Source: Defluviimonas aquaemixtae (GTDB lineage: Bacteria > Pseudomonadota > Alphaproteobacteria > Rhodobacterales > Rhodobacteraceae). Taken from it: a stretch of 64,000 nt of DNA. The DNA lies in contig NZ_OMOQ01000001.1 in the NCBI RefSeq assembly GCF_900302475.1, positions 2,346,601 to 2,410,600 on the forward strand, in the 5' to 3' direction. A model generated the notes under the pieces. That model was given only the letters and a program-made list of their open reading frames with translations, was not told the DNA's origin and made no database searches. Positions 1,696-19,741 of the stretch are shown here, one piece after another (within the stretch, counting starts at the first letter, position 1; each line of letters starts with the position of its first letter). The position numbers were made by a program, and so were the translations under genes.

Positions 1696-4600
1696 TCAGT
1701 TCTCGGGAAGGGTGGTTGTGAAAAGTTCGAGTGTCTGATCACCAGCAGGGCAGAGGCCGCCATCGATAGGCTGCCAGTCGCCATAGCTCCAGCCGGCGTC
1801 GCCGTCCGTTCCGAGTCCGCTCGTGCCAGAGACGGAGCGATCCGCGGCGATGTCGGGATGCGTGAACCAACCCCAGAAATGATCCTGCGCCCCGTTGATG
1901 GTTGTGACGCGCCGGCCCGTCTCAAGATCATAGCCGAATCCCGCGACAGCCTGGATCGACAGCCAGTATCGACGCCCCGGAGTTCCGATGAATGCGTTGG
2001 CCAGCACCGGCGGCTGCACAGCGACACTGCCGAGGTCGCGCGGGTCGGGCTTCGCGGCAACCGCCGCCCAGCAGTTCTCTAGATCAACCATGTGTTCGAT
2101 GACGCGCCGCCCGTTCGGGCCGCACTCCGTCAAGCCTACGTCACGCAGACCGATCTCGGCGGGCGGGCAGAAAAATTGCCCTAAATCGGTGCCTGGCTGG
2201 CCGTGGGCGCCCGGTGTGCTTGCCGGCGCTGGTTGCTCGGTATGAAACCCGATCAGCCATCCATCGATATCTTTGCCATCGCCCTGCGGCCCACCCAGGG
2301 CTGGCGGAACGAAGTCTTCGTCCAGAAAGGCGCCCCAGAATCGCACGGACTTGATGGCGTTGCCATCCGCGATGAAGTCGTCTGCAACGACCGTATTCGG
2401 CCCTGGAACCCGGGCGCATCGTACCTGAATGCCGATACTGCCGACCGAAAGTTCCTGTCCTTCGAAACGGACACCGACGATATCGGTCCCGCCCAGAGAC
2501 TGCACGACCGATGACTCGCTTTTCGGCACGTCCAGTTGCGCCGAAGGGGTTCCGGCGGCGCGCTCGTTGACGCTGAAGGTGGCGGTACCTCCGCAATTGT
2601 TCATTAGTGCCGACACACCAACAACCCGGTTGCCACGTCCTGCGAATTGCGAGAGATCCATGCTCACCGAGCCACTAAATAGTCCGAAGACGCGTCCATG
2701 CAGTGGCGGTACGTCGGTGCATCCCTTAACGGTAGGATTTTGCGCGTCGTCGACAACGAGCCGTGTCCCGCTGAACCTTAGAGCTGCGACCGAAGGCGAG
2801 GTTTGTTCGCACACCGTTCCGGCGGGCACCCGTTCCTGCTGTTCTGTAATGTCTCCGAGAGCAAGAGACTGAAGGTCAAGGAACGCCGTCGTCAGTCGGC
2901 CGAGGGAACGGTTGGCACCGACATTGGAGGGCGCCGCGAAGCCCATGAGAGTATCGCCGGGCCCGTGCTGCCAGACCGGCACGCGCTGGCGCGGTGGAAG
3001 CGACAACCTCAGTTGCTCGGCCGTCTGGTTCGTCATCTCATCCGCGACCAGCGTTGGATGTGCCCCATCCAACGAGGCCGCGTTCGCCCGGAAATTGAGG
3101 TTGAGGTTGCTCCAATCATCGAAGCCGCGCAGCTTCTGCCACGGAGAGGGGCCGCAATCATGAGCCCCAAGGTTGTTGATGTCGGCCTCTGCGAGTGTCT
3201 CGGCAGGATGCGCGTCGTGGTCCCAGTTGATCGGGCCACTGCCTGCGCCGATGGCGCGTGTCGCACCGGGCGCCGGTGCAAACCGCGTTTGCAGGGGACC
3301 GTCGCCGATGCCTACGGACTCGTCCAAGGCGCCTTCGTCAAGAACGCCGTTCTTGGCGGCCGGCAGAGCCGCGCGGGAGTAGTCCCAAAGTGACGTCGGC
3401 AGCAAGCCCTCCCGCTGGAAGGCGTAATTCATCACTGACAGGTAGTTCGGTTTGCAGTTGATCGCGTCATCTCCACCGTGACGGAGCCCCAGATTGTGTC
3501 CGAGCTCGTGCATCAGCGTTCCCGTCGCCCAGTTCCGGTAATCGGCTAGGGGCCAAGTCACAACGCTGTCGCCCAGCGAAACGATGAAATCGTCTCCGTT
3601 CAGCTCCGCTATGCCCGAACTACCGCCTCCATCATGGCTGTGGGCCCAAAGACTGTAGTGATAGACCAGACGCTTGGCACTGATCGCAGCAGAGTTCGCC
3701 CGCTCTGCCGACGTACCGAAACGCAGGCGTTTAGTATCGCTGAGACAGTCGAGATCGCATTCATTTGCGTGCGGCAGAGTCTCATCCAGCTGGAGGTGGA
3801 GGTTAATACCGGGACGGCCGTCCGGATTGGCGACGGGCGCGCTCGCGAAGGCCAACGCTACGCGTCGGCGCGCCGGAAGAGGCGGGATATGGTTGTGAAT
3901 AGCCGGGCCGGACGGTCCGCAATCACTGCCCGTCACGCGGCAATCGAATGCGTCCATCTCGACGAAGATGTCTTTGTGGTCGGCCGACGCGCCAAGTACG
4001 GGAAGATCTAGATCCACGGTGCCGTCGCTGTCGTAGTCGATCCCGAGTGTTTCCCACGCATCGAGGAGGCTGTCGCCGTCACGGTCACCAATTTCAATAC
4101 CGACGGCAATGCTGTCTCCGGGATCGAAAACCACTCGTGCCGATGGAGTGTGGGAGAACGCGGCGATACGGACGCCCGAGCCCTTGTAGACCTGGACATT
4201 CGCACTCGGGACGCTTGCCGTCGGTGCCAGGCTGTGGGCGATGACAATCTCGGCGGCCCCGCCACCGTCAATGTCGCCGACGGCCAGACCGTCGCCAGGA
4301 TCGAAGGGGACCGGCGTGGAAGGGCTATCCGCGAACCAGCCGATCCGGGTGCCTGAAACGGTGTAGATACCGATGCCCGCGCTCTGCGAACCGCTCGCGC
4401 CGCCATGACTGATGTTAATGCTGTGAGCAATGATGATTTCTTCATGGCCATTGCCATCGACGTCGCCAACTGCCACTGCGTCGCCGGGATCGAAGGGCAC
4501 CGCGCTTGCAGCAGTGTCGGCGAACACGCCAGTGCGGACTCCCGAGGCGGCATAGATAGCGACAATCGCGCTCTGCGGTCCACTCGCGCCGCCAGGGCTC

Positions 4601-5226
4601 ACGTTTACACTGTGAGCGATGATGATCTCGTCGACGCCGTTCCCATCGACATCGCCGGACGCAAGCCCGTCGCCTGGATCGTAGGATACTGGCGAAACGA
4701 ATGAGTCCTGAAATCGGGCGATTTCCGTTCCCGATGCCTCGTAGACAGACACCGCGGCGCTCTGCGTACAGCCGGTCGTCTCGCTCGGATGGCAAAGACT
4801 CTCGACCACTACGATTTCGTCGGAGCCGTTGCCGTCGACGTCTGCCGTGGCAAGGTCGAAATTCGGCTCAAGGAGCGGCCCGACCGGCTGCAGAGAGGGC
4901 GTGATCGCAGCCTGAAATCTCGCCGTCACCACACCGAATTGGTTCCGGATCGTGATCGCACCCGACGGATCGGCGAGGACGATCTCATCTCGCAGATCGC
5001 CGTCTATGTCGCCGACAGCCAGTCGGCTTCCAGAGGGAAGGTCCGATGGCATTCCACCACGAACGCCATGAATCGGATGGCGGCCCTCATGATCCAAAAT
5101 CGATATGGTCGCAGCAGACGCCACGACTATGCCCTCGGGTGTCTGCGCGTGTGCCGGAATGGCAGCATGAAGTGCCGAGAGCGAAACGAGAACCATCGAT
5201 GCAGAAACGAAAGTTCGATGGACCAC
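1696..5226 (-). CDS. Large secreted metzincin-like zinc metalloprotease with VCBS/FG-GAP repeats
   Basis: The 1176-residue protein starts at GTG with GAGGT six bases upstream and has a Sec signal peptide cleaved near residue 28 (AIPAHAQ). Residues about 60-370 hold five repeats of the VCBS/FG-GAP kind with Asp-rich calcium loops (GDIDGDLRDEI, ADVDGNGSDEI, GDVDGNGVDEI, GDVDGNGHEEI, GDIDGGGAAEI). A protease domain follows, with the extended zinc motif HELGHNLGLRHGG near residue 572 and a SVMNYAF Met-turn about 20 residues later, the metzincin pattern. The C-terminal 450 residues are beta-rich with scattered cysteines and no membrane anchor. It is probably an extracellular or surface protease whose repeats mediate binding. 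Neighbours give no substrate hint. Confidence 0.8.
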   Translation of the reverse strand: MVHRTFVSASMVLVSLSALHAAIPAHAQTPEGIVVASAATISILDHEGRHPIHGVRGGMPSDLPSGSRLAVGDIDGDLRDEIVLADPSGAITIRNQFGVVTARFQAAITPSLQPVGPLLEPNFDLATADVDGNGSDEIVVVESLCHPSETTGCTQSAAVSVYEASGTEIARFQDSFVSPVSYDPGDGLASGDVDGNGVDEIIIAHSVNVSPGGASGPQSAIVAIYAASGVRTGVFADTAASAVPFDPGDAVAVGDVDGNGHEEIIIAHSINISHGGASGSQSAGIGIYTVSGTRIGWFADSPSTPVPFDPGDGLAVGDIDGGGAAEIVIAHSLAPTASVPSANVQVYKGSGVRIAAFSHTPSARVVFDPGDSIAVGIEIGDRDGDSLLDAWETLGIDYDSDGTVDLDLPVLGASADHKDIFVEMDAFDCRVTGSDCGPSGPAIHNHIPPLPARRRVALAFASAPVANPDGRPGINLHLQLDETLPHANECDLDCLSDTKRLRFGTSAERANSAAISAKRLVYHYSLWAHSHDGGGSSGIAELNGDDFIVSLGDSVVTWPLADYRNWATGTLMHELGHNLGLRHGGDDAINCKPNYLSVMNYAFQREGLLPTSLWDYSRAALPAAKNGVLDEGALDESVGIGDGPLQTRFAPAPGATRAIGAGSGPINWDHDAHPAETLAEADINNLGAHDCGPSPWQKLRGFDDWSNLNLNFRANAASLDGAHPTLVADEMTNQTAEQLRLSLPPRQRVPVWQHGPGDTLMGFAAPSNVGANRSLGRLTTAFLDLQSLALGDITEQQERVPAGTVCEQTSPSVAALRFSGTRLVVDDAQNPTVKGCTDVPPLHGRVFGLFSGSVSMDLSQFAGRGNRVVGVSALMNNCGGTATFSVNERAAGTPSAQLDVPKSESSVVQSLGGTDIVGVRFEGQELSVGSIGIQVRCARVPGPNTVVADDFIADGNAIKSVRFWGAFLDEDFVPPALGGPQGDGKDIDGWLIGFHTEQPAPASTPGAHGQPGTDLGQFFCPPAEIGLRDVGLTECGPNGRRVIEHMVDLENCWAAVAAKPDPRDLGSVAVQPPVLANAFIGTPGRRYWLSIQAVAGFGYDLETGRRVTTINGAQDHFWGWFTHPDIAADRSVSGTSGLGTDGDAGWSYGDWQPIDGGLCPAGDQTLELFTTTLPEN

Positions 5227-6170: not shown

Positions 6171-7394
6171 ATGACAGACAATGACGGGAACCTCGTATTC
6201 TGTTCTGACGAGGAAGAGCAGGCACCTCAATCTGAAAGCCGCCGCGGTTTTCTGAAGCTAGCCGCGCTCAGCGGAGCGGTGGCGACGCTCTCGACGCGGC
6301 GCGCCCTTGCAAACGGCGACACCGCGTTCCACGCGAAGGATCTGCCGGATGACAAGCTGATCGACATGTACCGGACGATCCTGAAGATCCGCTGGCACGA
6401 ACGGACCCAGGCGGACCAGATGCTCGGCAACCCCGACTACCGGGGCTACAACCACTTCTATGCCGGGCAGGAAGCGGTCGCGACCGGCGTTTGCGCGGCT
6501 CTGCGCAACGATGGACCATTTGAGCAGATCGACCTCGTCTACTCGACGCACCGGCCCTCGGGCCACGCCATCGCTAAAGGTGTAGACATCCCGACGATGG
6601 TCGCCGAGATGGACTTCCGCGCGACCGGCATGAACGGTGGCTACGCGGCCGAGATGCACATTTCCGACCCCTCGGTTGGCTTCGTCGGCGCCGACGGGAT
6701 GATCGGGCCGGGCCACGTAACCGCGACCGGCTCCGCCTTCGCCTTCCGGGCTCGCGGATCTGACCAGGTTTCGGTCGTCTTCGGCGGCGATGGCACCTAC
6801 GCCACACCGCAGTTCCACTCGGCGCTGAACAACGCCAAGCTCCTAGATCTGCCCTTCATCTACGTGCTGGAAAACAACCTTTATCACCAGTACGCGCACT
6901 ACACGTACTCGTGCCCCCACAGGGACATCGCCGACGCGGCCACGGCCTACGGCATCCCGGCGCGGGTGGTGGATGGCCAGGACGTGATGCAGGTCTACAA
7001 TGCTGCGAAGGAGGCGGTGGACCGCGCCCGCGCAGGTGGCGGCCCGGGGTTCATCGAGGCCAAGACCTACCGCTATTACAACCATTGGGGCGCCCCCGGC
7101 GCCAAGGAAGGCGAACTCGGCGCGTTCGGCTACGACCCCCTCGCCATCACGTCGTTCCGACCGGAGCGCGAAGTCCGCGCCTGGATGCAGCGTGATCCGG
7201 TGGATATCGCGCGGAATATCCTCGTGGACTGGGGTGTCGTTGACGAGGCGCGCGCCACCGAGATCGAGGACGAGGTCAAAACTGAGATCACGGCAGCCTT
7301 CGAATGGGGTCTCGCTCAGCCGCTTTGCACGCCTGAGGATGGTCTCAAGCACGTTTTTGCCGAGGGTACGGTTCTGCCACGCCAGTTCGGTTGA
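6171..7394 (+). CDS. TPP-dependent 2-oxoacid dehydrogenase E1 alpha subunit with Tat signal
   Basis: The 407-residue protein is an E1 alpha subunit of the pyruvate/acetoin/branched-chain 2-oxoacid dehydrogenase family. Unlike known members it begins with a twin-arginine leader: SRRGFLKLAAL with Arg24-Arg25, a hydrophobic stretch and a predicted cut after ALA near residue 47. The TPP/Mg motif is GGDGTYATPQFHSALNNAK ... VLENN; the GDG and closing NN are kept, but the usual NQG and the FHEA glutamate are replaced. The His-containing loop reads TYRYYNHWGAPG. The start at 6171 is preceded by GGAGG; an upstream in-frame ATG lacks one. The E1 beta gene follows 33 bases downstream. A periplasmic oxidative or non-oxidative 2-oxoacid decarboxylase is the simplest reading; the substrate is unknown. 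Confidence 0.85.
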   Translation: MTDNDGNLVFCSDEEEQAPQSESRRGFLKLAALSGAVATLSTRRALANGDTAFHAKDLPDDKLIDMYRTILKIRWHERTQADQMLGNPDYRGYNHFYAGQEAVATGVCAALRNDGPFEQIDLVYSTHRPSGHAIAKGVDIPTMVAEMDFRATGMNGGYAAEMHISDPSVGFVGADGMIGPGHVTATGSAFAFRARGSDQVSVVFGGDGTYATPQFHSALNNAKLLDLPFIYVLENNLYHQYAHYTYSCPHRDIADAATAYGIPARVVDGQDVMQVYNAAKEAVDRARAGGGPGFIEAKTYRYYNHWGAPGAKEGELGAFGYDPLAITSFRPEREVRAWMQRDPVDIARNILVDWGVVDEARATEIEDEVKTEITAAFEWGLAQPLCTPEDGLKHVFAEGTVLPRQFG

Positions 7395-7427
7395 GCCGAC
7401 GGCCTTCGCGTATGAAAGGAAACGACG

Positions 7428-8399
7428 ATGACTGAGAAAAGCTGGATGTATGCGGTCCTTGAGGCCGTGCAACACGAAATGCGCGAGGATCCGGCGATGA
7501 CCTGGATTTTCGAGCTCACCCCGCCGGTGGCCTCCAACCCCGGCATGCCGGTGATCAACCTGGAGACGGAGTTCGGCCGCAAGCGCGTGGTCAATGCCGG
7601 CATTGACGAATACTGGATGGCGGCCATGGTGCTGGGCGCGGGCCTCGCCGGGTCGCGCTCGGCGACCTACATTCCTTATCAGGGCGCTCTGATGCCGTTC
7701 GAGCTGATCCAGAACTACGCTGGCAAACTTCGCCACATGACCGGCGGCAAGGCCTCGATGCCCGTTGTCTGGATCATCGAGATGACCGGCCAAACGCCGG
7801 GCTTCGCCGGGCAGCACTCCTGTTACGAGGAAGACAGCTTCTACATGCACATCCCCGGCGTGCGGACGGTCATTCCGTCGACGCCCTACGACGCGAAGGG
7901 GATGATGGTCTCCGCGCTCCGCTCGCCCGACCCGGTCGTCTATCTCTATCCGGCGGGCTTGCGGACCCTGACCGAAGAGGTGCCGGACGAGCAATACGAG
8001 GTGCCGCTCGACAAAGCCGCGGTGCGGATGGAGGGCAGCGACCTCACTATCGTCAGTTCGGGCGGCGGGATGCCGGGCGTGCTGGAGGCGGCTGAGACGC
8101 TGAAGGGCGAGGGCATGGGTGTCGAAGTCATCGACCTGCGCGTGCTCAAGGAGATGGACACCGAAACGCTCGTCAATTCGGTCGCCAAGACCAAGCGACT
8201 GCTGACGGTGGACCAGTCCTACTACACGCTCGGGCCAGGCGCCGAGGTCGTCGCACGCTGCGCCGAGAACGTTGACGGTGCGCGGTTCAAGCGGGTGGCC
8301 TTCCCGGACGCGCCGCCACCGGCCTCGCCCGAGATGTTCCTCTGGATGCGGCCGAGCGCCGAAGGCATCGCGGGAGCGGCTCGTGCCATCGTCGGCTGA
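7428..8399 (+). CDS. TPP-dependent 2-oxoacid dehydrogenase E1 beta subunit
   Basis: The 323-residue product has the transketolase-like pyrimidine-binding half followed by the C-terminal transketolase domain of E1 beta. RVVNAGIDEYWMAAM aligns with the family's RVxNTPLxE segment, keeping the catalytic glutamate that activates the thiamine pyrimidine. The motifs GFAGQHSCYEEDSFYMHIPG and VIPSTPYDAKGMM are also typical. The first residues (MTEKSWMYAVLEAV) contain no export signal, so if the enzyme works outside the cytoplasm the subunit must cross with the Tat-tagged alpha subunit. No E2 acyltransferase or E3 gene is adjacent, which argues against a classical dehydrogenase complex. A ribosome site AAAGGAAACG precedes the start. 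The gene overlaps the next start by 17 bases. Confidence 0.85.
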   Translation: MTEKSWMYAVLEAVQHEMREDPAMTWIFELTPPVASNPGMPVINLETEFGRKRVVNAGIDEYWMAAMVLGAGLAGSRSATYIPYQGALMPFELIQNYAGKLRHMTGGKASMPVVWIIEMTGQTPGFAGQHSCYEEDSFYMHIPGVRTVIPSTPYDAKGMMVSALRSPDPVVYLYPAGLRTLTEEVPDEQYEVPLDKAAVRMEGSDLTIVSSGGGMPGVLEAAETLKGEGMGVEVIDLRVLKEMDTETLVNSVAKTKRLLTVDQSYYTLGPGAEVVARCAENVDGARFKRVAFPDAPPPASPEMFLWMRPSAEGIAGAARAIVG

Positions 8400-8715
8400 G
8401 GCGGATCGCCGGGCGAAGCCGCAGGCGGCGGAGCCGAAAGTGCCCGCCGCCGAAGCGCCCCGCTGTGAGTCCTGCGGAACTGGCAGGCTGGCGCTGGATA
8501 ACGTGCGCACAGCACTCTGGTCGGGCGAGCGGCTCGTCGTTGTCGAGGATGTCCCGGCGCTCGTTTGCACCCATTGCGGCGAGCAGTTTTACGAGGACGA
8601 GACGGCGATGCGGCTCGACATGCTGCGTGGTGGCGGTTTCCCCACAGGCAGCGCGGCGCGCGAGATGGTGGTGCCCGTGTTCAAGTTCAGCACGCCGCGC
8701 AACTCCGAAGGTTGA
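8383..8715 (+). CDS. YgiT-type zinc-finger protein
   Basis: The 110-residue protein is read from GTG at 8383, inside the end of the E1 beta gene. It carries paired cysteines C28-x2-C31 (CESCGTG) and C62-x2-C65 (CTHCGEQ) separated by a VVVEDVPALV beta segment, the layout of YgiT/MqsA-type zinc-finger domains. No helix-turn-helix follows and no toxin partner is adjacent, so it is unlikely to be a standard antitoxin. The C-terminal part (FPTGSAAREMVVPVFKF) is unassigned. Its place between E1 beta and the cytochromes suggests an accessory or assembly role, for example chaperoning the exported enzyme; that is inference. The first 25 residues are low complexity and the exact start is uncertain. Confidence 0.65.
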   Translation: MPSSAEADRRAKPQAAEPKVPAAEAPRCESCGTGRLALDNVRTALWSGERLVVVEDVPALVCTHCGEQFYEDETAMRLDMLRGGGFPTGSAAREMVVPVFKFSTPRNSEG

Positions 8716-8721
8716 GGGCTC

Positions 8722-9276
8722 GTGAACGGAAATCGCGTCATAGGTATCGCCATCCTCGCCGGTTTCGGCGCGAGTTCTGGATTGGCGCAAGGCGATGACT
8801 TCGCCTTCATGCCGCCGGGCGGGAAGTCGATCTTCGTGGAAGCGCTCCTGCCCGGCGATGCGGCGGGCCTCGCAGAGGCCGCCGCACGCAAGGCCCGCGT
8901 CGAGGAATGGGCCGAATGGGCGCGGCAGCAGAATCCCGATCTCTCCCAGGCCGCGGTTGAAACTTTCGCGGGCTATGCTGCGCTCAACTTCCCCGTAACG
9001 GATGATGTCGCCGGGGCGCTCGCCGAACGTGGCGATGTGGCGCTCTTGCCGCGCGACGGGAAAGAGCTTGCCATCGCGCAGTGCCAATTCTGTCACTCGC
9101 TGTTTACGGGCTACCTCATGCAGGACCGCGGCGAAACCAGTTGGAAAGGCACGTTCAAGGCGCCGTTCCATGCCGAGATCCCGATGAGCGAAGTCGAGCG
9201 CGACACCTTTGCCCATTACTCGGCGATCAACATGCCGCTGAAATTCGAGGATGTGCCGCCAGAACTGAGGTTCTGA
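8722..9276 (+). CDS. Exported monoheme cytochrome c (first of a pair)
   Basis: The 184-residue product starts at GTG six bases after the zinc-finger stop and has a Sec signal peptide (MNGNRVIGIAILAGFGASSGLAQ). One heme-attachment motif C121-QF-C124-H125 lies in the C-terminal half; methionines such as in AEIPMSEVE or NMPLKF are candidate sixth ligands. The N-terminal half before the heme has no recognised domain. It resembles the next gene in overall plan: a short conserved start F(A/D)F(M/I)P.GG, the heme motif at about residue 120, and an ending PPELR. It is probably a periplasmic electron carrier for the Tat-exported E1 enzyme, by gene order only. Confidence 0.75.
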   Translation: MNGNRVIGIAILAGFGASSGLAQGDDFAFMPPGGKSIFVEALLPGDAAGLAEAAARKARVEEWAEWARQQNPDLSQAAVETFAGYAALNFPVTDDVAGALAERGDVALLPRDGKELAIAQCQFCHSLFTGYLMQDRGETSWKGTFKAPFHAEIPMSEVERDTFAHYSAINMPLKFEDVPPELRF

Positions 9277-9298
9277 CACAGGAAGAGGGGCTGAACGC

Positions 9299-9862
9299 AT
9301 GAGACGTCCTGCATTTCACAAACTCATGGCGGTGATTGCCGCACTGCTGGGAACGGCAGTGATCGGGCTCGCTCAGGAAGATGTCTTCGACTTCATTCCC
9401 GTTGGTGGCCGTACGCTGCTGGAGAACCTGCGGGCCGAGGGGATGCCGGCAGACCTGGAAGGCGGCATCGGCTCGCAAGGCGGCGACGCCGAGGCGTGGC
9501 GCGCGCGGCTTGAGGCCGCCGGTGCCGAAGCGCCGTCGCTCGAGGCGCTCGACGCCTGGCAGACCGACACGCTCGCCTACTATCTGGCGGCCAATGCTCC
9601 GCTTGCCAGCGGTGTGGATCTGCCGCGCGACGGCAGGGACATGGCGCTCGCCCTCTGCCAGTCCTGCCACATCATCACGGTGGTGGTGACGCAGGAGCGG
9701 ACTCGCGAGGCGTGGCTGCGGACGATGAATGGGCCGAGCCATGTCGAGATCGCGACCACCCCGGCCGAGCGGGAAGCGCTCGCGGATTACCTCGTCATCA
9801 ACGCCGGGATCCCGATCGACCAGATTCCACCCGAACTGCGCGCCGGCGGCGCCTCCTACTGA
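9299..9862 (+). CDS. Exported monoheme cytochrome c (second of a pair)
   Basis: The 187-residue protein has a signal peptide (MRRPAFHKLMAVIAALLGTAVIGLAQ) and a single heme motif C120-QS-C123-H124. It is paralogous to the preceding cytochrome: both begin the mature chain with a DFxFxPxGG-like stretch, carry LPRDG just before the heme motif, and end with an alpha-helical segment and PPELR. Likely sixth heme ligands are not certain. Tandem duplication of a cytochrome inside a seven-gene operon suggests a two-step relay or a heterodimer. GAGGGG precedes the ATG with suitable spacing. Confidence 0.75.
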   Translation: MRRPAFHKLMAVIAALLGTAVIGLAQEDVFDFIPVGGRTLLENLRAEGMPADLEGGIGSQGGDAEAWRARLEAAGAEAPSLEALDAWQTDTLAYYLAANAPLASGVDLPRDGRDMALALCQSCHIITVVVTQERTREAWLRTMNGPSHVEIATTPAEREALADYLVINAGIPIDQIPPELRAGGASY

Positions 9863-9898
9863 GGAGCGCGGTCAACGGGCGACGGAGGGCATTCGCCG

Positions 9899-11329
9899 AT
9901 GCTGTTCACCACGCTCGATTTTCTGCTCTTTCTGCCCGTCGCGGTTCTCGTCTTCTGGCTGCTGCCGGTCCGGCTGCGCCTGCCCTGGCTCGTGCTGGCG
10001 AGCGTCATCTTCTATGGCAGCTTTGGACTTCAGAATCTCATCTATCTCGCGATCGTTATCGTCATCGTTCTGATCGCCGGCCGGATGCTCAGGACAGATG
10101 CGCTGGGTACACGACGTGTGGCGCTCTGGGGTGGCACCTTCGTGATCCTCGCGCTGATGGGCCTACTGAAATACTACGATCCGATCGCGGCAGAGATCAA
10201 CGGCTTGCCCACGCTCGGTCTCAGCTCGCCCGCGGGCTTTTCCTTCTACGCCTTCACCGCGATCGCGCTCATTGTCGACCGCTATCGCGATCCGGCGGCG
10301 GCGCGGGCAAGTGACGCGCAGGAAGTGCTTTATCTGGCCTGGTTCCCGAAGATCCTCGCCGGGCCGATCGAGCGGATCGGGCCGTTCATCGCCGAGCTGA
10401 CCGAAAAATCGCCACTTACCTGGCCGCAATTCGCTTTGGGGTGCCAGTTGATCCTATGGGGAATCGTCAAGAAGGTGGTCGTCGCCGATAACCTCGCGCC
10501 CTTCGTCGACCGCACCTATGCGATCCCCGCCTATGCCGTGCCCGTCGAACTCATCATCGCGAGCTACTTCTTCGCCTTCCAGATCTACTGCGATTTCTCG
10601 GGCTACACCGACATCGCCCGCGGAACATCGCAACTCTTCGGTATCCGGCTCTCGGAGAACTTCCGCCGCTCCTACTTCGCGCATTCGATCGGCGAGTTCT
10701 GGTCGCGGCGGTGGCACATCTCGCTCGCCGACTGGTTTCGCGACTACGTCTACTTCCCGCTCGTCGGATCCGAGCGGAAGGCCTGGCGCATGTATGCCGG
10801 GCTCATGGTCGTCTTCATCCTGAGTGGCATCTGGCACGCAGGGCTCGGTTACGGAATCGGCTGGGGCTTCGTGGCCTGGGGGATACTGAACGGCGCCTAT
10901 TTGTGGGGCGAGCGCGCCCTGAACCCCCTGCGCCGGCGGCTCCGCAAGCGCCTCGGCGCCAGTTGGCTCGGGTCTCTTCATACCTTCGCGGCGATCCTTG
11001 TCGTCTTCCACCTGATCCTCGTGAGCTGGGTCTTTTTCCGAGCCGGTGATCTCGGCGATGCCGCCTTGATTCTCGGCCGCATCTGGGACGATCTGCCGGC
11101 GTTGCCCGCGCTTCTGCCGAACTATCCCTTCACCGCAGAACACGGCTTTCTCGCAGCGTTGATTGCCGCGCTTCTCGTAATCGAGACTTTGATGGAACGC
11201 CCCCGCATCGCCGAACAGTTCGCCGCCGCGGCGCGCCCGCTGCGCTGGCTCGTCTGGCTTGCCTGCCTCTTCGCGCTGATCGTCCTCGGCCGATGGGACA
11301 GCGAAGTCTTCGTCTACATGCAGTTCTGA
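9899..11329 (+). CDS. MBOAT-family O-acyltransferase (AlgI/DltB-like)
   Basis: The 476-residue polytopic membrane protein begins with MLFTTLDFLLFLPVAVLVFW, typical of AlgI-type acyltransferases. It contains LKYYDPI, GFSFYAF, FPKILAGPI and FCDFSGY-like YCDFSGYTDIARG segments, then SGIWHAGLGYG with the invariant membrane-embedded His at residue 313. Family members move acyl groups, usually from a cytoplasmic acyl donor, onto polysaccharide or teichoic acid outside the membrane together with a DltD/AlgJ/AlgX-like SGNH partner. Such a partner follows directly. The substrate polymer is unknown; no alginate or teichoic acid genes are nearby. Confidence 0.85.
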   Translation: MLFTTLDFLLFLPVAVLVFWLLPVRLRLPWLVLASVIFYGSFGLQNLIYLAIVIVIVLIAGRMLRTDALGTRRVALWGGTFVILALMGLLKYYDPIAAEINGLPTLGLSSPAGFSFYAFTAIALIVDRYRDPAAARASDAQEVLYLAWFPKILAGPIERIGPFIAELTEKSPLTWPQFALGCQLILWGIVKKVVVADNLAPFVDRTYAIPAYAVPVELIIASYFFAFQIYCDFSGYTDIARGTSQLFGIRLSENFRRSYFAHSIGEFWSRRWHISLADWFRDYVYFPLVGSERKAWRMYAGLMVVFILSGIWHAGLGYGIGWGFVAWGILNGAYLWGERALNPLRRRLRKRLGASWLGSLHTFAAILVVFHLILVSWVFFRAGDLGDAALILGRIWDDLPALPALLPNYPFTAEHGFLAALIAALLVIETLMERPRIAEQFAAAARPLRWLVWLACLFALIVLGRWDSEVFVYMQF

Positions 11330-11340
11330 AAGGCCGACCC

Positions 11341-12306
11341 ATGGACAGCCTCAGCCGCACACCGCCTACATTGCCCTGGGCTCGCATCGCCGCCTTCCTG
11401 GGAGTCTGCATCGCGCTTTACGTCGCCGCTGCGGTGGTCGCGGAGTTCAGCGTGGGCCGGCGCGGAGAGGACACGGCCCTGCAGAAGCTCTACGCGGCGC
11501 GAGGCGCACCGGTCGACTGGGTTGTACTGGGGGCGTCGCATGCCCTGCCGCTGGACTACGGCGGCATCCCCGATCAACTCCACGAGGATACGGGGCAGAC
11601 GATGATCGTCCTCGCGGAGGTGGGCGCGGGACCGTATTACAGCGACTTCGTGTTGCGGCAGGCATTGGAGGACCTGCACCCGAAGCGCCTCCTCTATGTC
11701 GCGGATTCCTTCGCGTTCCGTTCCGCGCGCTGGAACAAGGAGCGTATCGCGGACCGCAAGCTGCTGCGCAATACGCCGCTGCGGCTGTCCACCCTCTGCA
11801 CCATGCTGGATTTGACCATCTCCGCCGACCTCTCGGCGCGTGCGGTCCTCGATTTCGCCACGGCGTTTTCGAAGATCAATCCGCCGGACCGGTTCCCGAG
11901 GGACGACTGGCGCGGGGCCGAGAACTTCGAGCGCCGCTTCCGTCCGTCACGCCACGCCACCGCCGCGCGGATCGAATATCTCTATCCCGAACCGCCTTCC
12001 GAAGAGACGCAAGTCCGCTACTTCCAAGTTCTCGAGGCGATGTTCGCAAGAGCCCGCTCCGCGGGGCTCAGCGTCACCGTCGTCAAGATGCCGGTGCCTC
12101 GGGCCTTTCGCGATGCTCTCCCCGATGAGGCCACCTTCGACACCGCCCTCCGCGCACGCCTTGCACCACTCGGCATACCGATTCACGACTTCAGCGCAAT
12201 ACTCGACGATCCGGTCTATTATTTCGATACGGATCACCTTAATCGCGAAGGCGTCGACCGTCTCTACGACGAGTTCCTCAGGCCAATCCTCGCCGCGGGT
12301 GGCTGA
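11341..12306 (+). CDS. Membrane-anchored SGNH-like protein, partner of the MBOAT
   Basis: The 321-residue protein has one N-terminal transmembrane helix (residues about 13-35) and a periplasmic domain. WVVLGASHALPLD places a candidate nucleophile Ser66 in the GxSxx block, and FDTDHLNREGVDRLY near residues 295-310 gives the DxxH block of SGNH hydrolases (D296, H299). This architecture parallels DltD and AlgJ, which complete extracellular acyl transfer begun by the MBOAT protein. ATG at 11341 is chosen because it follows the MBOAT stop by 11 bases with a GAAAGG site; an upstream in-frame start would run 37 bases into the MBOAT gene. This is the last gene of the cluster. Confidence 0.75.
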   Translation: MDSLSRTPPTLPWARIAAFLGVCIALYVAAAVVAEFSVGRRGEDTALQKLYAARGAPVDWVVLGASHALPLDYGGIPDQLHEDTGQTMIVLAEVGAGPYYSDFVLRQALEDLHPKRLLYVADSFAFRSARWNKERIADRKLLRNTPLRLSTLCTMLDLTISADLSARAVLDFATAFSKINPPDRFPRDDWRGAENFERRFRPSRHATAARIEYLYPEPPSEETQVRYFQVLEAMFARARSAGLSVTVVKMPVPRAFRDALPDEATFDTALRARLAPLGIPIHDFSAILDDPVYYFDTDHLNREGVDRLYDEFLRPILAAGG

Positions 12307-13462: not shown

Positions 13463-14551
13463 TCAGGGCCGCGTCCATACTTGCGTCTCTAGTTCGACCG
13501 CCTCGCCAAGGCTGTCGAGACTATCGATGAGTATCTGCTGCGCGTAAGCCGGATTGTGAGCGTAGATGCCCGGATCCTTCGCGACGAACTGGTAGTTGTA
13601 TGCCGCCTGCAGAAGGCGCGGCGTCCAGTGCTGATAGCGATTTGGATAGGCGAGCTCCTCTCCGTCCGGCAAGCCGTTGGCATTCAGATCGGCGAAGAAA
13701 TAGGGATAGTTATCGGGGGCATAGATTATCGGCGCGCCGGTGACCTCGGCGGCGTAGGCGAGGAGCGCCCGGCCCAGCGCATCGTGCAGCGTTGCCATCT
13801 CTGCGGCCACCCCTTCGGAAGCGTCACCGTCTGCATCCACATCATCCGGGCGCGTTCGGATCGCCCAAAGGTCTTGTGTGTTGTGGCAACTCGCGCAAAC
13901 GGTAGTGCTAACTTCGAGCGTATGCGCATCATGGCAGTTCGCGCAGCTGTCGAAGCCTGCGACATGCGCAAACCGGCCCGCATAGATCTTGCCCGGATAT
14001 TCGTAGGCGCCATGCGCCACCGCGCCCATAAGGCTCGCCGCCGCCGCGCGATAGTGGATGTTGATGAAGCCGAGGTCAGGCGAAACCGAGTCCGGCTCGA
14101 GCCCTGCGACCGCCGCCTCGACGCTGGACGATGACTGGCGGCCCTGATGGCACACCATGCAAATGGCGGAGCTACCGAGCCTCTCGACGACCGCGCCGCT
14201 CGGAAAAACGACTTCGTCGAGCGACGTCGCAGTGAGGTTGTGGCACGCTGCGCAATCGACGGTCGACCCGATCAGGGCCGGGCGATCCACGATACCGGGC
14301 TCGGTTCCGTCTGCGCCGAGAAAGTCGCGCAGCCCGCTGCTGGAATGGCAGGCCGCGCATTCCTGCGCGACGGCGCCGTCTTCGTTCCAATGCTGGAAGG
14401 ATTGCGATTCCTGGTCAGCATGCGGCGAACCAAGCCAGGACTCAACGATGTCTGCGAGTGGAACCTGCGTATCCTGAGCCCACGCCGTCTTGCCGGAGAG
14501 GAGCCAAAAGGACGGAACAGTCAGCAAAAGTCCGATAGTCCTACTGATCAT
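13463..14551 (-). CDS. Exported pentaheme cytochrome c
   Basis: The 362-residue protein has a signal peptide (MISRTIGLLLTVPSFWLLSGKTAWAQ) and five CxxCH heme sites in order: CAACHS, CAACHN, CMVCHQ, CANCHD and CASCHN. All lie in the first two thirds; the C-terminal third (APDNYPYFFADLNANGLPDGEE and onward) has no heme site and includes a calcium-loop-like DLNANGLPDGE segment. It is probably a periplasmic electron-transfer or respiratory multiheme protein; no known five-heme enzyme is recognised. ATG 14551 is chosen for its signal peptide and upstream GGGAGG; longer frames to 14788 lack one. A perfect FNR box lies about 83 bases upstream, so expression should rise when oxygen falls. Confidence 0.8.
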   Translation of the reverse strand: MISRTIGLLLTVPSFWLLSGKTAWAQDTQVPLADIVESWLGSPHADQESQSFQHWNEDGAVAQECAACHSSSGLRDFLGADGTEPGIVDRPALIGSTVDCAACHNLTATSLDEVVFPSGAVVERLGSSAICMVCHQGRQSSSSVEAAVAGLEPDSVSPDLGFINIHYRAAAASLMGAVAHGAYEYPGKIYAGRFAHVAGFDSCANCHDAHTLEVSTTVCASCHNTQDLWAIRTRPDDVDADGDASEGVAAEMATLHDALGRALLAYAAEVTGAPIIYAPDNYPYFFADLNANGLPDGEELAYPNRYQHWTPRLLQAAYNYQFVAKDPGIYAHNPAYAQQILIDSLDSLGEAVELETQVWTRP

Positions 14552-14627
14552 AATTCCCAGCCTCCCACGTTCCCGGACTGCTACAGCCGGATCAGTGTTA
14601 ATCATGCCGGATCGCTTTGGCATTCTG

Positions 14628-14641
14628 TTGATAAGGATCAA
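14628..14641. promoter_or_regulatory. Perfect FNR/FixK box (TTGAT-AAGG-ATCAA)
   Basis: TTGATAAGGATCAA matches the FNR consensus at all ten positions. It lies between the divergent pentaheme cytochrome (start 14551) and the APH-like gene (start 14676). Its centre is about 83 bases from the cytochrome start, a good activation distance, and about 41 bases from the APH-like start codon, which is too near for class II activation of that gene, so the cytochrome is the likelier target. Confidence 0.85.
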
Positions 14642-14675
14642 TGCCTCTTTACCGCCCTGCAGGAAGAATAACCGT

Positions 14676-15773
14676 ATGAACACCAGCTGCGCGGCGCCTT
14701 CCAATCCGCCTTCCTCCGCCGCCAAGATCGACGCGGTCGAGCGTGCGCTGGGGCCCAACGCACCCGTGGAGCGCAGAGAGACGAGCATGGCCTGGGTGTT
14801 TCTGACGGCCGACCGGGCCTACAAGATGAAGAAGCCCATTCGGCGGCGCATATTCGATTTCTCGACCACCGATTTACGGCGGCATGCCTGTTCGGAAGAG
14901 CTGCGTCTCAATCGCCGCCTCGCCCCGGACGTCTATCTCGGCCTTTCGCAGTTGAAGCGTGCTCTCGGTGGCGTGCTCTCGCTCGACGGTGAGGGCGAAA
15001 CCGTCGAATGGCTCGTACGGATGCGCCGTCTGCCGGACGCGCGCTTTCTCGACCGCGCCTTGGCGAACGGCGCGGTCACCGAGGCGGACATCATCGCCAT
15101 TGCCCGACGGCTCACCCGGTTCCATCAGTCGCTGCCCCCTGAGGTGCCGTCGTCCAATGAATACCTTTCGCGCTTCCAGTCTGATCTGGAGGAGACGCGC
15201 TCCTTCCTGCCTAAGAAATCGTTCGCAGACGAGGCGTCTCGGTTTGAACGCTTGACCGCACTGTTGGCGTCCGTTCTGGCAATGGAGCCTGGTCTGCTGC
15301 TGACCCGACTCACCGACAGGCGCGTTGTCGAAGGACATGGTGACCTCCGGCCCGAGCATGTCTGGCTTGGCCCTCCTGTCCTGATTATTGACTGTCTCGA
15401 AGCCGCGCGGGGACTCCGGCTGCTCGACCCGTTCGAGGAGTACGCAACGTTGGCAATGGAATGCGCGACTATTGACGAAGACTGGGTCGGCAAGCTTCTC
15501 TTTCGCGAGGCGACGAAGCGAATGGATGATCGACCCGATGCGCGACTCAGCGCGTTCTACACCGCGCATCGTGCCACGCTGCGCGCGCGGCAGGCGCTGG
15601 CCCATCTTCTCGACCCGACCCCGCGCACGCCCGCAAAGTGGCGGCCTCTGGCGCGGCGGTACCTGGTCGAGGCCGAGAGGGCCGCCGCTATCCTGGAAAC
15701 GACAGGAGCTCCACGAGCGAACCGTCATGATGGAGCCGCCGGATCGCCTCGGCGAAAAGCGGGGCCGCGCTGA
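14676..15773 (+). CDS. APH-like phosphotransferase domain protein
   Basis: The 365-residue protein resembles the N-terminal domain of the bifunctional aminoglycoside phosphotransferase-like/ATP-binding proteins found in stress-gene islands. It carries ETSMAWVFLTADRAYKMKKP (candidate nucleotide-binding lysine), EELRLNRRLAPDVYLGL, and the catalytic-loop block VVEGHGDLRPEHVWL followed by IIDCLEA (metal-binding Asp). The usual C-terminal P-loop kinase half (AAA_33) is absent, so it is a single-domain version. True aminoglycoside resistance is unlikely; the substrate is unknown. ATG 14676 is preceded by AGGAAG. Its 3-prime end overlaps the convergent PRPP synthetase gene by 86 bases. Confidence 0.75.
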   Translation: MNTSCAAPSNPPSSAAKIDAVERALGPNAPVERRETSMAWVFLTADRAYKMKKPIRRRIFDFSTTDLRRHACSEELRLNRRLAPDVYLGLSQLKRALGGVLSLDGEGETVEWLVRMRRLPDARFLDRALANGAVTEADIIAIARRLTRFHQSLPPEVPSSNEYLSRFQSDLEETRSFLPKKSFADEASRFERLTALLASVLAMEPGLLLTRLTDRRVVEGHGDLRPEHVWLGPPVLIIDCLEAARGLRLLDPFEEYATLAMECATIDEDWVGKLLFREATKRMDDRPDARLSAFYTAHRATLRARQALAHLLDPTPRTPAKWRPLARRYLVEAERAAAILETTGAPRANRHDGAAGSPRRKAGPR

Positions 15774-16848: not shown

Positions 16849-18594
16849 ATGACCGAGGAAATGCTGCGCAAGGTCAAGGGAGCGGCCGGAAGGGCCAACA
16901 TGCCCGACTATGCCGCCGCCTGTGCGCAGTTTTCCTGGGACCAGGAGCGCGCAGCGCTCGCGGGCTTGCCGGGCGGCGGGCTGAACATCGCGCAAGAGGC
17001 TCTCGATGCGCAGATCGCGCGGGGGCGCGGCGACCGAATTGCGCTCCGTTGGATCGGCCGCGACGGCCAACGGCGGAACTTCAGCTACGACTCTCTTGCT
17101 AGATCCGCCAACCGCTTCGCGAACGTGCTCGGCTTGCTCGGCGTGAAGCGGGGCGAGACGGTCTATTCGCTTCTCGGGCGCGAGCCCGAGCTCTATTTCG
17201 CGGCGCTCGGCACGCTCAAGGCCGGTTCCGTCTTCTGTCCGATGTTCGCTGCGTTCGGGCCGGAACCTATCCAGGCCCGCATGGAGATCGGCTCGGCGAA
17301 AGTGCTAGTGACGTCCGCCGCTCTTTACCGGCGTAAGGTCAAACCTATTCGCGACCGGCTTCCGGACTTGGAGCACGTTCTGTTGATCGACGGCGAGGCA
17401 GAGGGATGCGCCGCGCTCGCTCCGATGATGGAGGCCGCCAGTGAAGAGTTCGCGACGACGAGGACACGGCCGGAAGACCCGTCGCTCCTGCACTTCACTT
17501 CAGGAACAACCGGTCTGCCGAAAGGTGCCAGACACGTTCACGAAGCGGTCGTCGCGCATCGCGTCACTGCCCGCCTCGCGCTCGACCTCAGGCCCGAGGA
17601 CATCTACTGGTGCACCGCAGATCCCGGCTGGGTGACTGGCACTTCCTACGGCATCATCGCGCCGCTCGTCATTGGCTCGACGATGATCGTCGACGAGGCG
17701 GAGTTCGACCCGGATCGTTGGTACGGCATCCTCGCCGACGAAGGCGTCACAGTCTGGTACACCGCGCCTACCGCGATCCGCATGCTAATGCGCGCCGGTG
17801 CCGATCTCATAGGCGGGCGCAAATTTCCCAAGCTCCGGTTCATGGCGAGCGTTGGCGAGCCCCTGAACCCCGAAGCCGTGCTGTGGGGGCATGAGGTCTT
17901 CGGGATGCCCTTCCACGACAACTGGTGGCAAACCGAAACCGGCGGCATCATGATCGCCAACTACGCCGCGATGGACGTGAAGCCCGGTTCGATGGGCAAG
18001 CCACTGCCTGGGATCGAGGCGGGGATCGTCGAGGTGACGGATGCGGGCGTAAGGGAACTCACCAAGCCGCAGGCGATCGGCGAATTGGCGCTGCGCCCCG
18101 GATGGCCGTCGATGATGCGAACCTACCTGCACGAGGAGGCGCGCTACAAAAAATGCTTCCGCGACGGCTGGTACTTGTCGGGTGATCTCGCGATGCGCGA
18201 CAAGGACGGCTATTACTGGTTCGTCGGCCGCGCCGATGACGTGATTAAGAGCGCCGGCCACCTGATCGGACCCTTCGAGGTCGAAAGCGCGCTGATCGAG
18301 CATGATGCCGTGGCCGAGGTCGGCGTGATCGGCATCCCCGACGAGACGGCAGGCGAGATCGTCAAAGCCTATGTGACGCTGCACAAGGGCTACGAGCCCG
18401 ACGAAGAGCTGGAGCGCGTGCTTCTCGGCCACGCCCGAAAGCGGCTTGGTCCTGCAGTCGCGCCGAAAGAGATCGTGTTCCGCCAAAATCTGCCGAAGAC
18501 GCGATCTGGAAAGATCATGCGGCGACTTCTCAAGGCCCGTGAGTTGGGGCTGCCCGAGGGCGATATCTCCACGCTCGAAAGCGACGAGAAATGA
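16849..18594 (+). CDS. acsA: AcsA-like acetate/short-chain acyl-CoA ligase
   Basis: The 581-residue protein is an adenylate-forming enzyme (ANL family). It has the P-loop-like [20 protein letters not shown] (about residues 213-232), [13 protein letters not shown] (A5 region), [21 protein letters not shown] (A7/A8 hinge) and the C-terminal [12 protein letters not shown] with the lysine regulated by acetylation. The length is closer to the 570-residue Bacillus AcsA type than to the 650-residue Acs type. It activates acetate or a related acid to acyl-AMP and acyl-CoA. An acyl carrier protein gene follows 94 bases later, so loading of a carrier protein is an alternative. GGGGAGGAG precedes ATG 16849, and the FNR box upstream suggests anaerobic induction. 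Confidence 0.8.
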
Positions 18595-18688: not shown

Positions 18689-18931
18689 ATGACATCGGAA
18701 AAGATTGAAGACCTTGTGCGCAGGGAACTCGCCCGCATCGCTCCAGATGTTGACGTCGACGATATCGACCGAAAGGGCGACTTGCGCGAGGAATGCGACA
18801 TCGACTCGCTTGATTTCCTCAATCTGGTAACTGCGCTCGGCAAGGCGCTGTCGATGCCGATGCCTGAGGCGGACTACCCGAAGATGCGGAGCTTCGATGA
18901 CCTGGTCGCTTATCTCCGCGAGGCCTCTTAG
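18689..18931 (+). CDS. Acyl carrier protein
   Basis: The 80-residue acidic protein is a stand-alone ACP: helix I, the loop CDIDSLDF carrying the phosphopantetheine attachment Ser40, and the closing MRSFDDLVAYL helix. The DSLDF variant is typical of specialised ACPs rather than the fatty-acid AcpP (DSLDTVEL). It sits directly after the AcsA-like ligase, which suggests the ligase may charge it or work in the same short pathway. No ketosynthase or phosphopantetheinyl transferase gene is nearby. CGGAGGC lies just before the start. Confidence 0.85.
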   Translation: MTSEKIEDLVRRELARIAPDVDVDDIDRKGDLREECDIDSLDFLNLVTALGKALSMPMPEADYPKMRSFDDLVAYLREAS

Positions 18932-18995: not shown

Positions 18996-19700
18996 TCATG
19001 ACCAATCCGCGACAAGCTCCTGCGCGCCTTCTGCCAGCGCGCGAAGCCGATCGGGGTCGCGCACGATGATCGTGTTTGGATCGTCGAGCTTTATCATTTT
19101 CTCGGCGCGCAGCTGCGTGATCGACCGGCTAACGGTTTCCGGTGTCAGCCCCACGTAGTCCGCGATATCCGAGCGGTTCATCGGCAAGCGGACTAAATGG
19201 CGGTCGTCGGCAGCTTCTCCGACGCGGTCGAGAAGCAGGATGAGAAATGCAGCCACTTTCTCGCTCGCCCGCCTGCGGCCGAAGATCAGGAAGTGGTCCT
19301 GCAGGAACCGGATTTCGTCCAGCGCGGCCGTCACGAGGAGCGAATGCAGCTTCGGGTCGCTCTCTGGATGATCGAGAGGATCGCAGCGCCGGGCCGACAC
19401 CTCGGCAGAAGTGATAGCGTCGCATTCGGTCGTGTGGCGGCCGGCGCAGGGCAGCCCAACGATATCTCCGGGAAATCCGAACGCGATGACTTGCCGCCGC
19501 CCGTCCCGCTGGGTCCGCGTCAGACGAAGAACGCCGGAACGCACCTTGTAAACAAATCTTGCGGGGTCGGACTCGAAGAAAATATGCTGCCCCGGTGCGA
19601 GTTGCCTGTTCAGGCGGTGCACGTGCCCATTTGGCTTTGGGTGGCTGTTTCGAAGCGCTGTTCGGGCTGAGCGAAGATCTTGTGAGACTGCTGCATACAT
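18996..19700 (-). CDS. Crp/Fnr-family regulator, FixK/Dnr type
   Basis: The 234-residue protein has a cNMP-type sensor fold (LAPGQHIFFESDPARFVYKVRSG ... GFPGDIVGLP) and a C-terminal helix-turn-helix with MNRSDIADYVGLTPETVSRS. The recognition helix keeps E..S.., the residues that in FNR/FixK contact TTGAT. The N-terminal cysteine cluster of true FNR is absent, so it should not carry an iron-sulfur oxygen sensor and is closer to FixK or Dnr; a single Cys occurs in LPCAGRHTTECD together with another nearby. It is the obvious candidate to bind the FNR-type boxes in this island. The start is placed at 19700 because GGGGG lies before that ATG; 19733 has no site. Confidence 0.85.
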   Translation of the reverse strand: MYAAVSQDLRSARTALRNSHPKPNGHVHRLNRQLAPGQHIFFESDPARFVYKVRSGVLRLTRTQRDGRRQVIAFGFPGDIVGLPCAGRHTTECDAITSAEVSARRCDPLDHPESDPKLHSLLVTAALDEIRFLQDHFLIFGRRRASEKVAAFLILLLDRVGEAADDRHLVRLPMNRSDIADYVGLTPETVSRSITQLRAEKMIKLDDPNTIIVRDPDRLRALAEGAQELVADWS

Positions 19701-19741
19701 GACGGCCCCCATTGTCGGCCCGAGCAGCATCACGCGCGTTT

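Follow-up and report, generated by a model that had tools for sequence, protein, structure and literature searches.

Why would the E1 subunits of a thiamine diphosphate (TPP)-dependent, 2-oxoacid dehydrogenase-like enzyme be encoded beside two exported cytochromes c and an MBOAT-SGNH acyl-transfer pair, and why does the alpha subunit begin with a twin-arginine translocation (Tat) leader? The question is raised by seven genes within 6171-12306 of a 64,000-nucleotide stretch of Defluviimonas aquaemixtae (contig NZ_OMOQ01000001.1, positions 2,346,601 to 2,410,600; "the window" hereafter means this whole stretch), a bacterium with a genome of 4.2 Mb. An earlier note on the window had proposed that the E1 pair is exported folded, oxidises a 2-oxoacid in the periplasm with cytochrome c as acceptor and may accompany the acylation of polymers; overall, this interpretation is partly supported here. 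Our reading, to which we assign a probability of roughly 0.4, is a low-oxygen periplasmic TPP dehydrogenase in which cytochrome c would take the place of E3 and, less certainly, an acyl-tyrosine/serine relay that of E2. Added to the earlier description are an FNR-type box upstream of E1alpha, an acyl-shuttle hexapeptide in the MBOAT protein and an invariant tail on the second cytochrome, cyt2.

Conservation and distribution of the module

Using the window proteins as queries, we found the order E1alpha, E1beta, YgiT, cyt1, cyt2, MBOAT, SGNH unchanged in 55/55 loci, which indicates that the association is more than chance. Genes are absent only where a contig stops, giving per-gene counts of 55 (E1alpha), 54 (E1beta), 53 (YgiT, the remaining two loci being cut), 52 (cyt1), 52 (cyt2), 50 (MBOAT) and 46 (SGNH), and the flanking genes vary among loci. 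The loci come from a search of genomes with an E1alpha-family alignment and two 7-residue patterns, by which remoter carriers may be missed, and they represent at most 52 genomes: judged by contig names, L046 and L050 belong to one assembly and L080, L089 and L092 to another. Nine further genome stretches add just one genome (G183, with the same seven-gene order), and the counts are not additive. Judged by record titles, the carriers of the 55 loci are mostly alpha- and betaproteobacterial: Rhodobacteraceae and relatives, Hyphomicrobiales, and Betaproteobacteria including Ramlibacter lithotrophicus. The best E1alpha homologs from named bacteria are of the Paracoccaceae/Roseobacteraceae type, e.g., Defluviimonas.

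Among 61 relatives, five have an E1alpha ortholog (73-100% identity, aligned length 393 residues or more), and the cytochromes occur in these five and in no others. The cytochrome pair occurs in 7/292 genomes of the order, all seven of which hold the whole cluster, and among 398 genomes of the phylum the cluster is in the window's own genome alone; these two surveys scored only 11 or 8 candidates per genome. The module is thus a rare, patchily spread and tightly bound unit. One genome without it (G019, C234:28220-28324) has a 35-residue piece that is 74% identical to the window E1alpha, possibly a remnant.

In the window, open reading frames (ORFs) and domain matches place 7/7 genes on the + strand with a largest intergenic gap of 36 bases, in keeping with the one-strand cluster with gaps of at most 40 bases described before. 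The E1alpha start is ATG 6171, preceded by GGGAGG. Two gene overlaps had been claimed; the likely GTG start of YgiT at 8383 gives one, of 17 bases with the E1beta end, and the other is not supported, since comparison with homologs puts the SGNH start most likely at ATG 11341 and not at the ORF start 11293.

The E1 pair, the cytochromes and the acyl-transfer pair

The E1alpha leader reads ...SESRRGFLKLAALSGAVATLSTRRALA followed by NG..., with the twin arginines at residues 24-25 and a cut predicted by eye after ALA at residue 47, so that the features of a Tat substrate (conserved twin-arginine motif, hydrophobic region, cut site) are all present. The motif RRx[FLIVM][LIVMFI] lies in frame ahead of the E1alpha domain in 52/52 loci that hold the start (the other 3/55 are cut there), and inside the first 80 residues in 118 of the best 120 of 1562 E1alpha homologs, the two exceptions beginning within the leader. 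In a 21-row E1alpha alignment, R24, R25 and F27 are invariant in an otherwise variable leader. Loci with the same neighbours and no Tat leader, which the earlier note had named as a refuting case, were looked for and not found. E1beta, as had been noted, has no signal, and its 53/53 complete copies begin directly with the enzyme domain. Since E1beta lacks a signal of its own, the natural inference from these sequences is that the pair is exported by Tat with E1beta hitch-hiking on E1alpha. TPP enzymes fold around their cofactor, which would account for the choice of Tat over Sec. Both cytochromes carry Sec-type signals (by eye, among the copies listed) as well as CxxCH.

E1_dh and transketolase-type domains with the TPP motif are present in the E1 pair. 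In E1alpha the TPP motif (GDG...NN) and the TYRY..H loop His are intact, and Glu61 and His130 of E1beta sit at the positions of the pyruvate dehydrogenase catalytic residues, whose roles we take to be those known from human and Bacillus E1. Relative to solved E1 chains, E1alpha has an insert after His305, and the active-site surroundings are unusual (His127-Arg128, YHQYAH); the substrate is therefore not readable from the sequence. In a 49-row tree with a midpoint root, the Tat E1alpha rows form a single clade (support 100/100, stem 1.87 changes per column) apart from pyruvate dehydrogenase-like and acetoin dehydrogenase-like E1. Please note that L008 in this tree is the window E1alpha itself and that L107, an E1 outside the family in which the twin-arginine pattern occurs solely ahead of the annotated start, was manually classed as non-Tat. 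E1alpha falls under the pyruvate dehydrogenase equivalog cut-offs (TIGR03182, 218.8 vs 393.85 bits; TIGR03181, 166.5 vs 411.35), as do five cytoplasmic acetoin-type relatives (321-375 bits for TIGR03182; "acetoin" is the record annotation). We considered assigning the substrate from the THR motif, which stands where YR might be expected and recalls acetoin-type E1, and rejected this because the tree, rooted at midpoint only, sets the Tat clade alone; the motif and the tree leave pyruvate and acetoin both as candidate substrates. Domain scans found no flavin or iron-sulfur domain in the E1 pair.

The earlier note would also have been contradicted by the E1 pair lying next to normal E2/E3 genes in relatives. 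Two E2 queries from the window's own genome found no lipoyl E2 in the 55 loci or the nine genome stretches, the locus flanks reaching at most 9-10 kb and often being cut, and no search was aimed at E3. The same queries recover E2 in 6/6 control loci that contain one (L103, L105, L106, L108, L151, L152). The two E2 genes of the own genome each adjoin another E1 gene, and 4/6 annotated cytoplasmic E1 relatives adjoin an acetoin-dehydrogenase-type E2; in the other two the gene table may be incomplete. Unusual surroundings of an E1 pair are also seen on a Sphingobium plasmid (L104:3995-8262), where the genes for a stand-alone lipoyl protein and a PQQ (pyrroloquinoline quinone)-dependent dehydrogenase come next.

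The third gene is a YgiT-type zinc finger as had been said, matching TIGR03831 above its cut-off; its product is perhaps a cytoplasmic assembly, checking or proofreading factor, which is a guess.

The cytochromes proved to be paralogs as described (35% identity, E 3e-26), with no Pfam match over cut-off in either. Heme Cys and His are kept in 51/52 cyt1 and 49/49 cyt2 rows; besides CxxCH there is a second conserved His (150 in cyt1, 148 in cyt2), pointing to a low-potential heme with His/His ligation in both. The cyt2 model (mean predicted local distance difference test score, pLDDT, 90.5) gives weak cytochrome c fold matches over residues 34-101 and 110-173, as if there were two cytochrome c-like domains with a heme site in the second only. 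The cyt2 C-terminus LRAGGA[ST]Y is found in 48/48 complete locus copies and in 120/120 of the homologs listed of 1343, despite about 50% identity to the window protein. Its last 7 residues have a pLDDT of 59 in the model, as would fit a flexible tail that becomes ordered on binding a partner. Among cyt1 C-termini, 2/51 do not end in RF, some possibly through assembly faults.

An MBOAT protein with an invariant His and an SGNH partner had been recognised before, and the full set of relay residues is now seen in them. The MBOAT hallmark residues, including this His, are conserved in the alignment, and the C-terminal FxYxxF is kept in 45/47 copies, with two departures, some of which may be assembly faults. 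According to PMC12148441, this hexapeptide is the acyl-shuttle motif of MBOAT. The SGNH residues Ser66, Asp296 and His299 (Ser plus DxxH) are kept in 44-46/46 rows, and the best Foldseek match of the SGNH model is DltD (E 1.8e-7; PatB 7tjb, E 1.5e-4). The MBOAT protein itself is below the DltB cut-off (TIGR04091, 134.9 vs 375 bits).

Two of the alignments (A2, A3) were built from selected loci. Excluded were the SGNH of L074 (a run-on ORF) and the E1beta of L067 (an in-frame stop); cyt1 of L086, MBOAT and SGNH of L049 and SGNH of L054 appear split and were used as they stand.

Upstream box, coordinates and neighbouring genes

The FNR/DNR consensus is TTGAY-N4-RTCAA. Of the 56 upstream regions, we scanned 53 (50 loci and the window, then L083 and L089; in L069, L090 and L092 E1alpha is cut or starts at a contig end) for nTGA[CT]N4[AG]TCAn, from position -350 to +60 relative to the start of the E1alpha match, and found an FNR/DNR-type box in 35/53 (33/51 + 2/2). 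Boxes occur in 83/409 upstream regions outside the cluster, 21/289 inside it and 133/1929 random windows, the control upstream regions being those of called ORFs including antisense ORFs, and mononucleotide shuffles predict 0.72 of 51 regions with a box. The coordinates of the window are collected in Table 1.

Table 1. The seven-gene module, its upstream box and neighbouring genes in the window.
Feature	Position	Strand	Remarks
Large protein	1696-5226	-	FG-GAP repeats, DUF7901; reprolysin-type peptidase match just under cut-off
FNR/DNR-type palindrome CTGACGCGCGTCAA	6063-6076	+	95-108 bases ahead of E1alpha start
E1alpha (TPP-binding), N-terminal Tat leader	6171-7394	+	PF00676, 168.5 bits
E1beta, without signal peptide	7428-8399	+	PF02779 and PF02780; Glu61, His130 kept
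YgiT-type zinc finger (CxxC...CxxC), without signal	8383-8715	+	TIGR03831 above cut-off
cyt1, monoheme c-type cytochrome with export signal	8722-9276	+	CQFCH; second His150; C-terminus LRF
cyt2, monoheme c-type cytochrome with export signal	9299-9862	+	CQSCH; second His148; tail LRAGGASY
MBOAT acyltransferase	9899-11329	+	PF03062, 68.8 bits; His273, His313; ends FVYMQF
SGNH transferase, DltD/PatB-like, N-terminal hydrophobic helix	11341-12306	+	Ser66, Asp296, His299
Multiheme c7/c3-like cytochrome	13463-14788	-	near the module
Acetate-CoA ligase	16849-18594		94 bases from the acyl carrier protein
Acyl carrier protein	18689-18931		
Crp/FNR-family regulator	18996-19733	-	nearest FixK/FnrL models, below cut-offs

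Neighbours of the cluster across loci, in part named by eye, include Crp/FNR regulators and Hsp20, UspA-like, CBS, BON-domain and phosphoribosyltransferase proteins; from their sequences, these surroundings have the look of low-oxygen survival islands. The Crp/FNR-family regulator of the window is a candidate for binding the box. Among the called genes, the multiheme cytochrome is shared by just two other loci (L045, L050) and is therefore not counted as part of the module. An ATP-synthase-like gene set (a second type, by eye) adjoins the module in L047, L048, L049, L054 and L073. The gene nosZ is present in 8/10 cluster-bearing and 18/41 cluster-free genomes; we regard a link to denitrification drawn from it as weak, nosZ being common in the cluster-free genomes too.

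The ligase and the acyl carrier protein (ACP) of the window were considered as a DltA/DltC equivalent for the MBOAT protein. We rejected this, the ACP being found in 7/10 cluster-bearing and 9/41 cluster-free genomes (51 selected genomes). In G013 and G016 (L151, L152), the ACP ends a separate cytoplasmic operon of ligase, fused E1 alpha/beta, lipoyl E2 and ACP, so we take it as a neighbour in the low-oxygen island and not as a part of the module. That operon is itself unusual in combining a dehydrogenase complex with an ACP, and in the window its middle (fused E1, lipoyl E2) may have been lost.

Proposed mechanism, alternatives and meaning

We propose that the seven genes form one machine, whose expression an FNR/DNR-type regulator would induce when oxygen runs low. 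Both E1 subunits would fold and bind TPP in the cytoplasm and then leave together through Tat by means of the alpha leader. In the periplasm the enzyme would oxidatively decarboxylate a 2-oxoacid, with pyruvate as the first guess, or cleave an acetoin-type ketone. Two electrons would pass singly to cyt1/cyt2, which would do what E3 and NAD do in an ordinary dehydrogenase complex, and then on to an oxidase or to nitrogen-oxide reductases. The acyl group may be taken over by the serine of the DltD-like SGNH protein and by the acyl-tyrosine relay of MBOAT in place of the lipoyl E2 arm; it would move either outward, to acylate an envelope component, or inward, onto CoA. Taken by itself, a periplasmic E1 with cytochrome c as electron acceptor is probable, while entry of its acyl group into the MBOAT/SGNH relay is a tentative proposal that may well be wrong. 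We prefer cytochromes for E3 and SGNH/MBOAT for E2 as the most economical reading, since it would explain why all seven genes stay together. Divergences across 41 loci (shared ancestry uncorrected) agree with one machine: E1beta correlates with cyt1 (r 0.75) and cyt2 (r 0.79), and MBOAT with SGNH (r 0.88).

Several points weigh against this mechanism. We know of no case in which TPP passes its electrons directly to a heme. The module is rare, as seen in both the order (7/292) and the phylum (own genome alone among 398). The box as defined is absent from 18/53 upstream regions; in a looser scan, six of these show a single mismatch and the remainder more than one. Denitrification as the electron sink is only suggested, with nosZ in 18/41 cluster-free genomes. 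The MBOAT-SGNH pairs described in PMC12148441 carry acyl groups outward from cytoplasmic donors, so that an SGNH protein supplied by E1 would be unprecedented.

That direction favours the alternative of two half-machines under one promoter, in which E1 and the cytochromes oxidise a 2-oxoacid to the free acid in the periplasm and the MBOAT/SGNH pair, fed by cytoplasmic acyl-CoA, O-acylates an envelope glycan or a protein of the module (e.g., the Ser/Tyr tail of cyt2, or E1). Retention of the MBOAT hallmark residues fits it as well, and so does the finding that, in their divergences, the E1beta/cyt1/cyt2 and MBOAT/SGNH subsets covary mostly better within than between. However, there is no polymer or glycosyltransferase gene within the seven-gene module, and the MBOAT/SGNH pair is never absent from an uncut locus, a constancy beyond what a loose association would require; we consider two half-machines a serious but somewhat doubtful option. 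If, on the other hand, the relay of Dlt/Pat systems were reversed, the module could be a transmembrane pyruvate dehydrogenase: the acetyl group would pass to the Tyr/Ser of the cyt2 tail or to the SGNH serine, from there to the MBOAT C-terminal Tyr and finally to cytoplasmic CoA, the electrons going to cyt1/cyt2. This we consider unlikely; if true, the cell would gain acetyl-CoA under oxygen shortage without making NADH.

Carboligation products are known from E1 enzymes, and the unusual neighbourhood of the active site (His127-Arg128, YHQYAH) would agree with a non-oxidative enzyme, i.e., a decarboxylase or a carboligase (for instance acetoin-forming), beside which the cytochromes serve another donor. 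The two cytochromes, however, directly adjoin the E1 genes in every locus uncut there, and the module has no other oxidoreductase, making this quite improbable in our judgement. Least credible of all is an enzyme working in the cytoplasm, with a leader that is vestigial or serves as a membrane anchor: E1beta and YgiT without signals would suit such a location, but the twin arginines and the hydrophobic stretch are kept while the remainder of the first 50 E1alpha residues varies, and the partner proteins carry export signals.

How does the proposed periplasmic dehydrogenase compare with known systems? It shares the alpha/beta architecture, TPP motif and catalytic-type residues with the E1 of 2-oxoacid and acetoin dehydrogenases, and the THR motif with acetoin-type relatives; it differs by the Tat leader, by the lack of an E2 at the locus, by having cytochromes and MBOAT/SGNH instead, and by its separate clade. 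With the MBOAT-SGNH pairs PatAB, AlgI/J and DltB/DltX/DltD it has in common the C-terminal FxYxxF, the Ser plus DxxH and the DltD-like fold, whereas its constant linkage to a TPP dehydrogenase and cytochromes, the absence of polymer genes and a score below the DltB cut-off set it apart. Quinoprotein alcohol dehydrogenases and the sulfite dehydrogenase SorAB are likewise periplasmic with a dedicated cytochrome c; here TPP would replace PQQ or molybdenum, carbon-carbon cleavage would be the reaction, and the enzyme would be a heterotetramer. Pyruvate oxidases and pyruvate:ferredoxin oxidoreductases carry out TPP-dependent oxidation of pyruvate without NAD, as proposed here, with FAD or iron-sulfur clusters inside a cytoplasmic enzyme; in contrast, no such domain was found in the module E1. 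The component parts are known families and the assembly matches no kind known to us. In agreement with the earlier note, which knew of no described system, we found no publication on one in the open-licence literature, judged by titles and abstract openings.

If the proposed reading is true, E1-type 2-oxoacid oxidation would also occur outside the cytoplasm and without a lipoyl complex, and the module would be the first Tat-exported E1 with a hitch-hiking partner known to us; the acyl-tyrosine chemistry of MBOAT-SGNH pairs may have found a new use in it. The TPP reaction would feed respiratory cytochrome c directly, on the outer side of the inner membrane and controlled by low oxygen, giving these bacteria an additional entry point for electrons from carbon into respiration.

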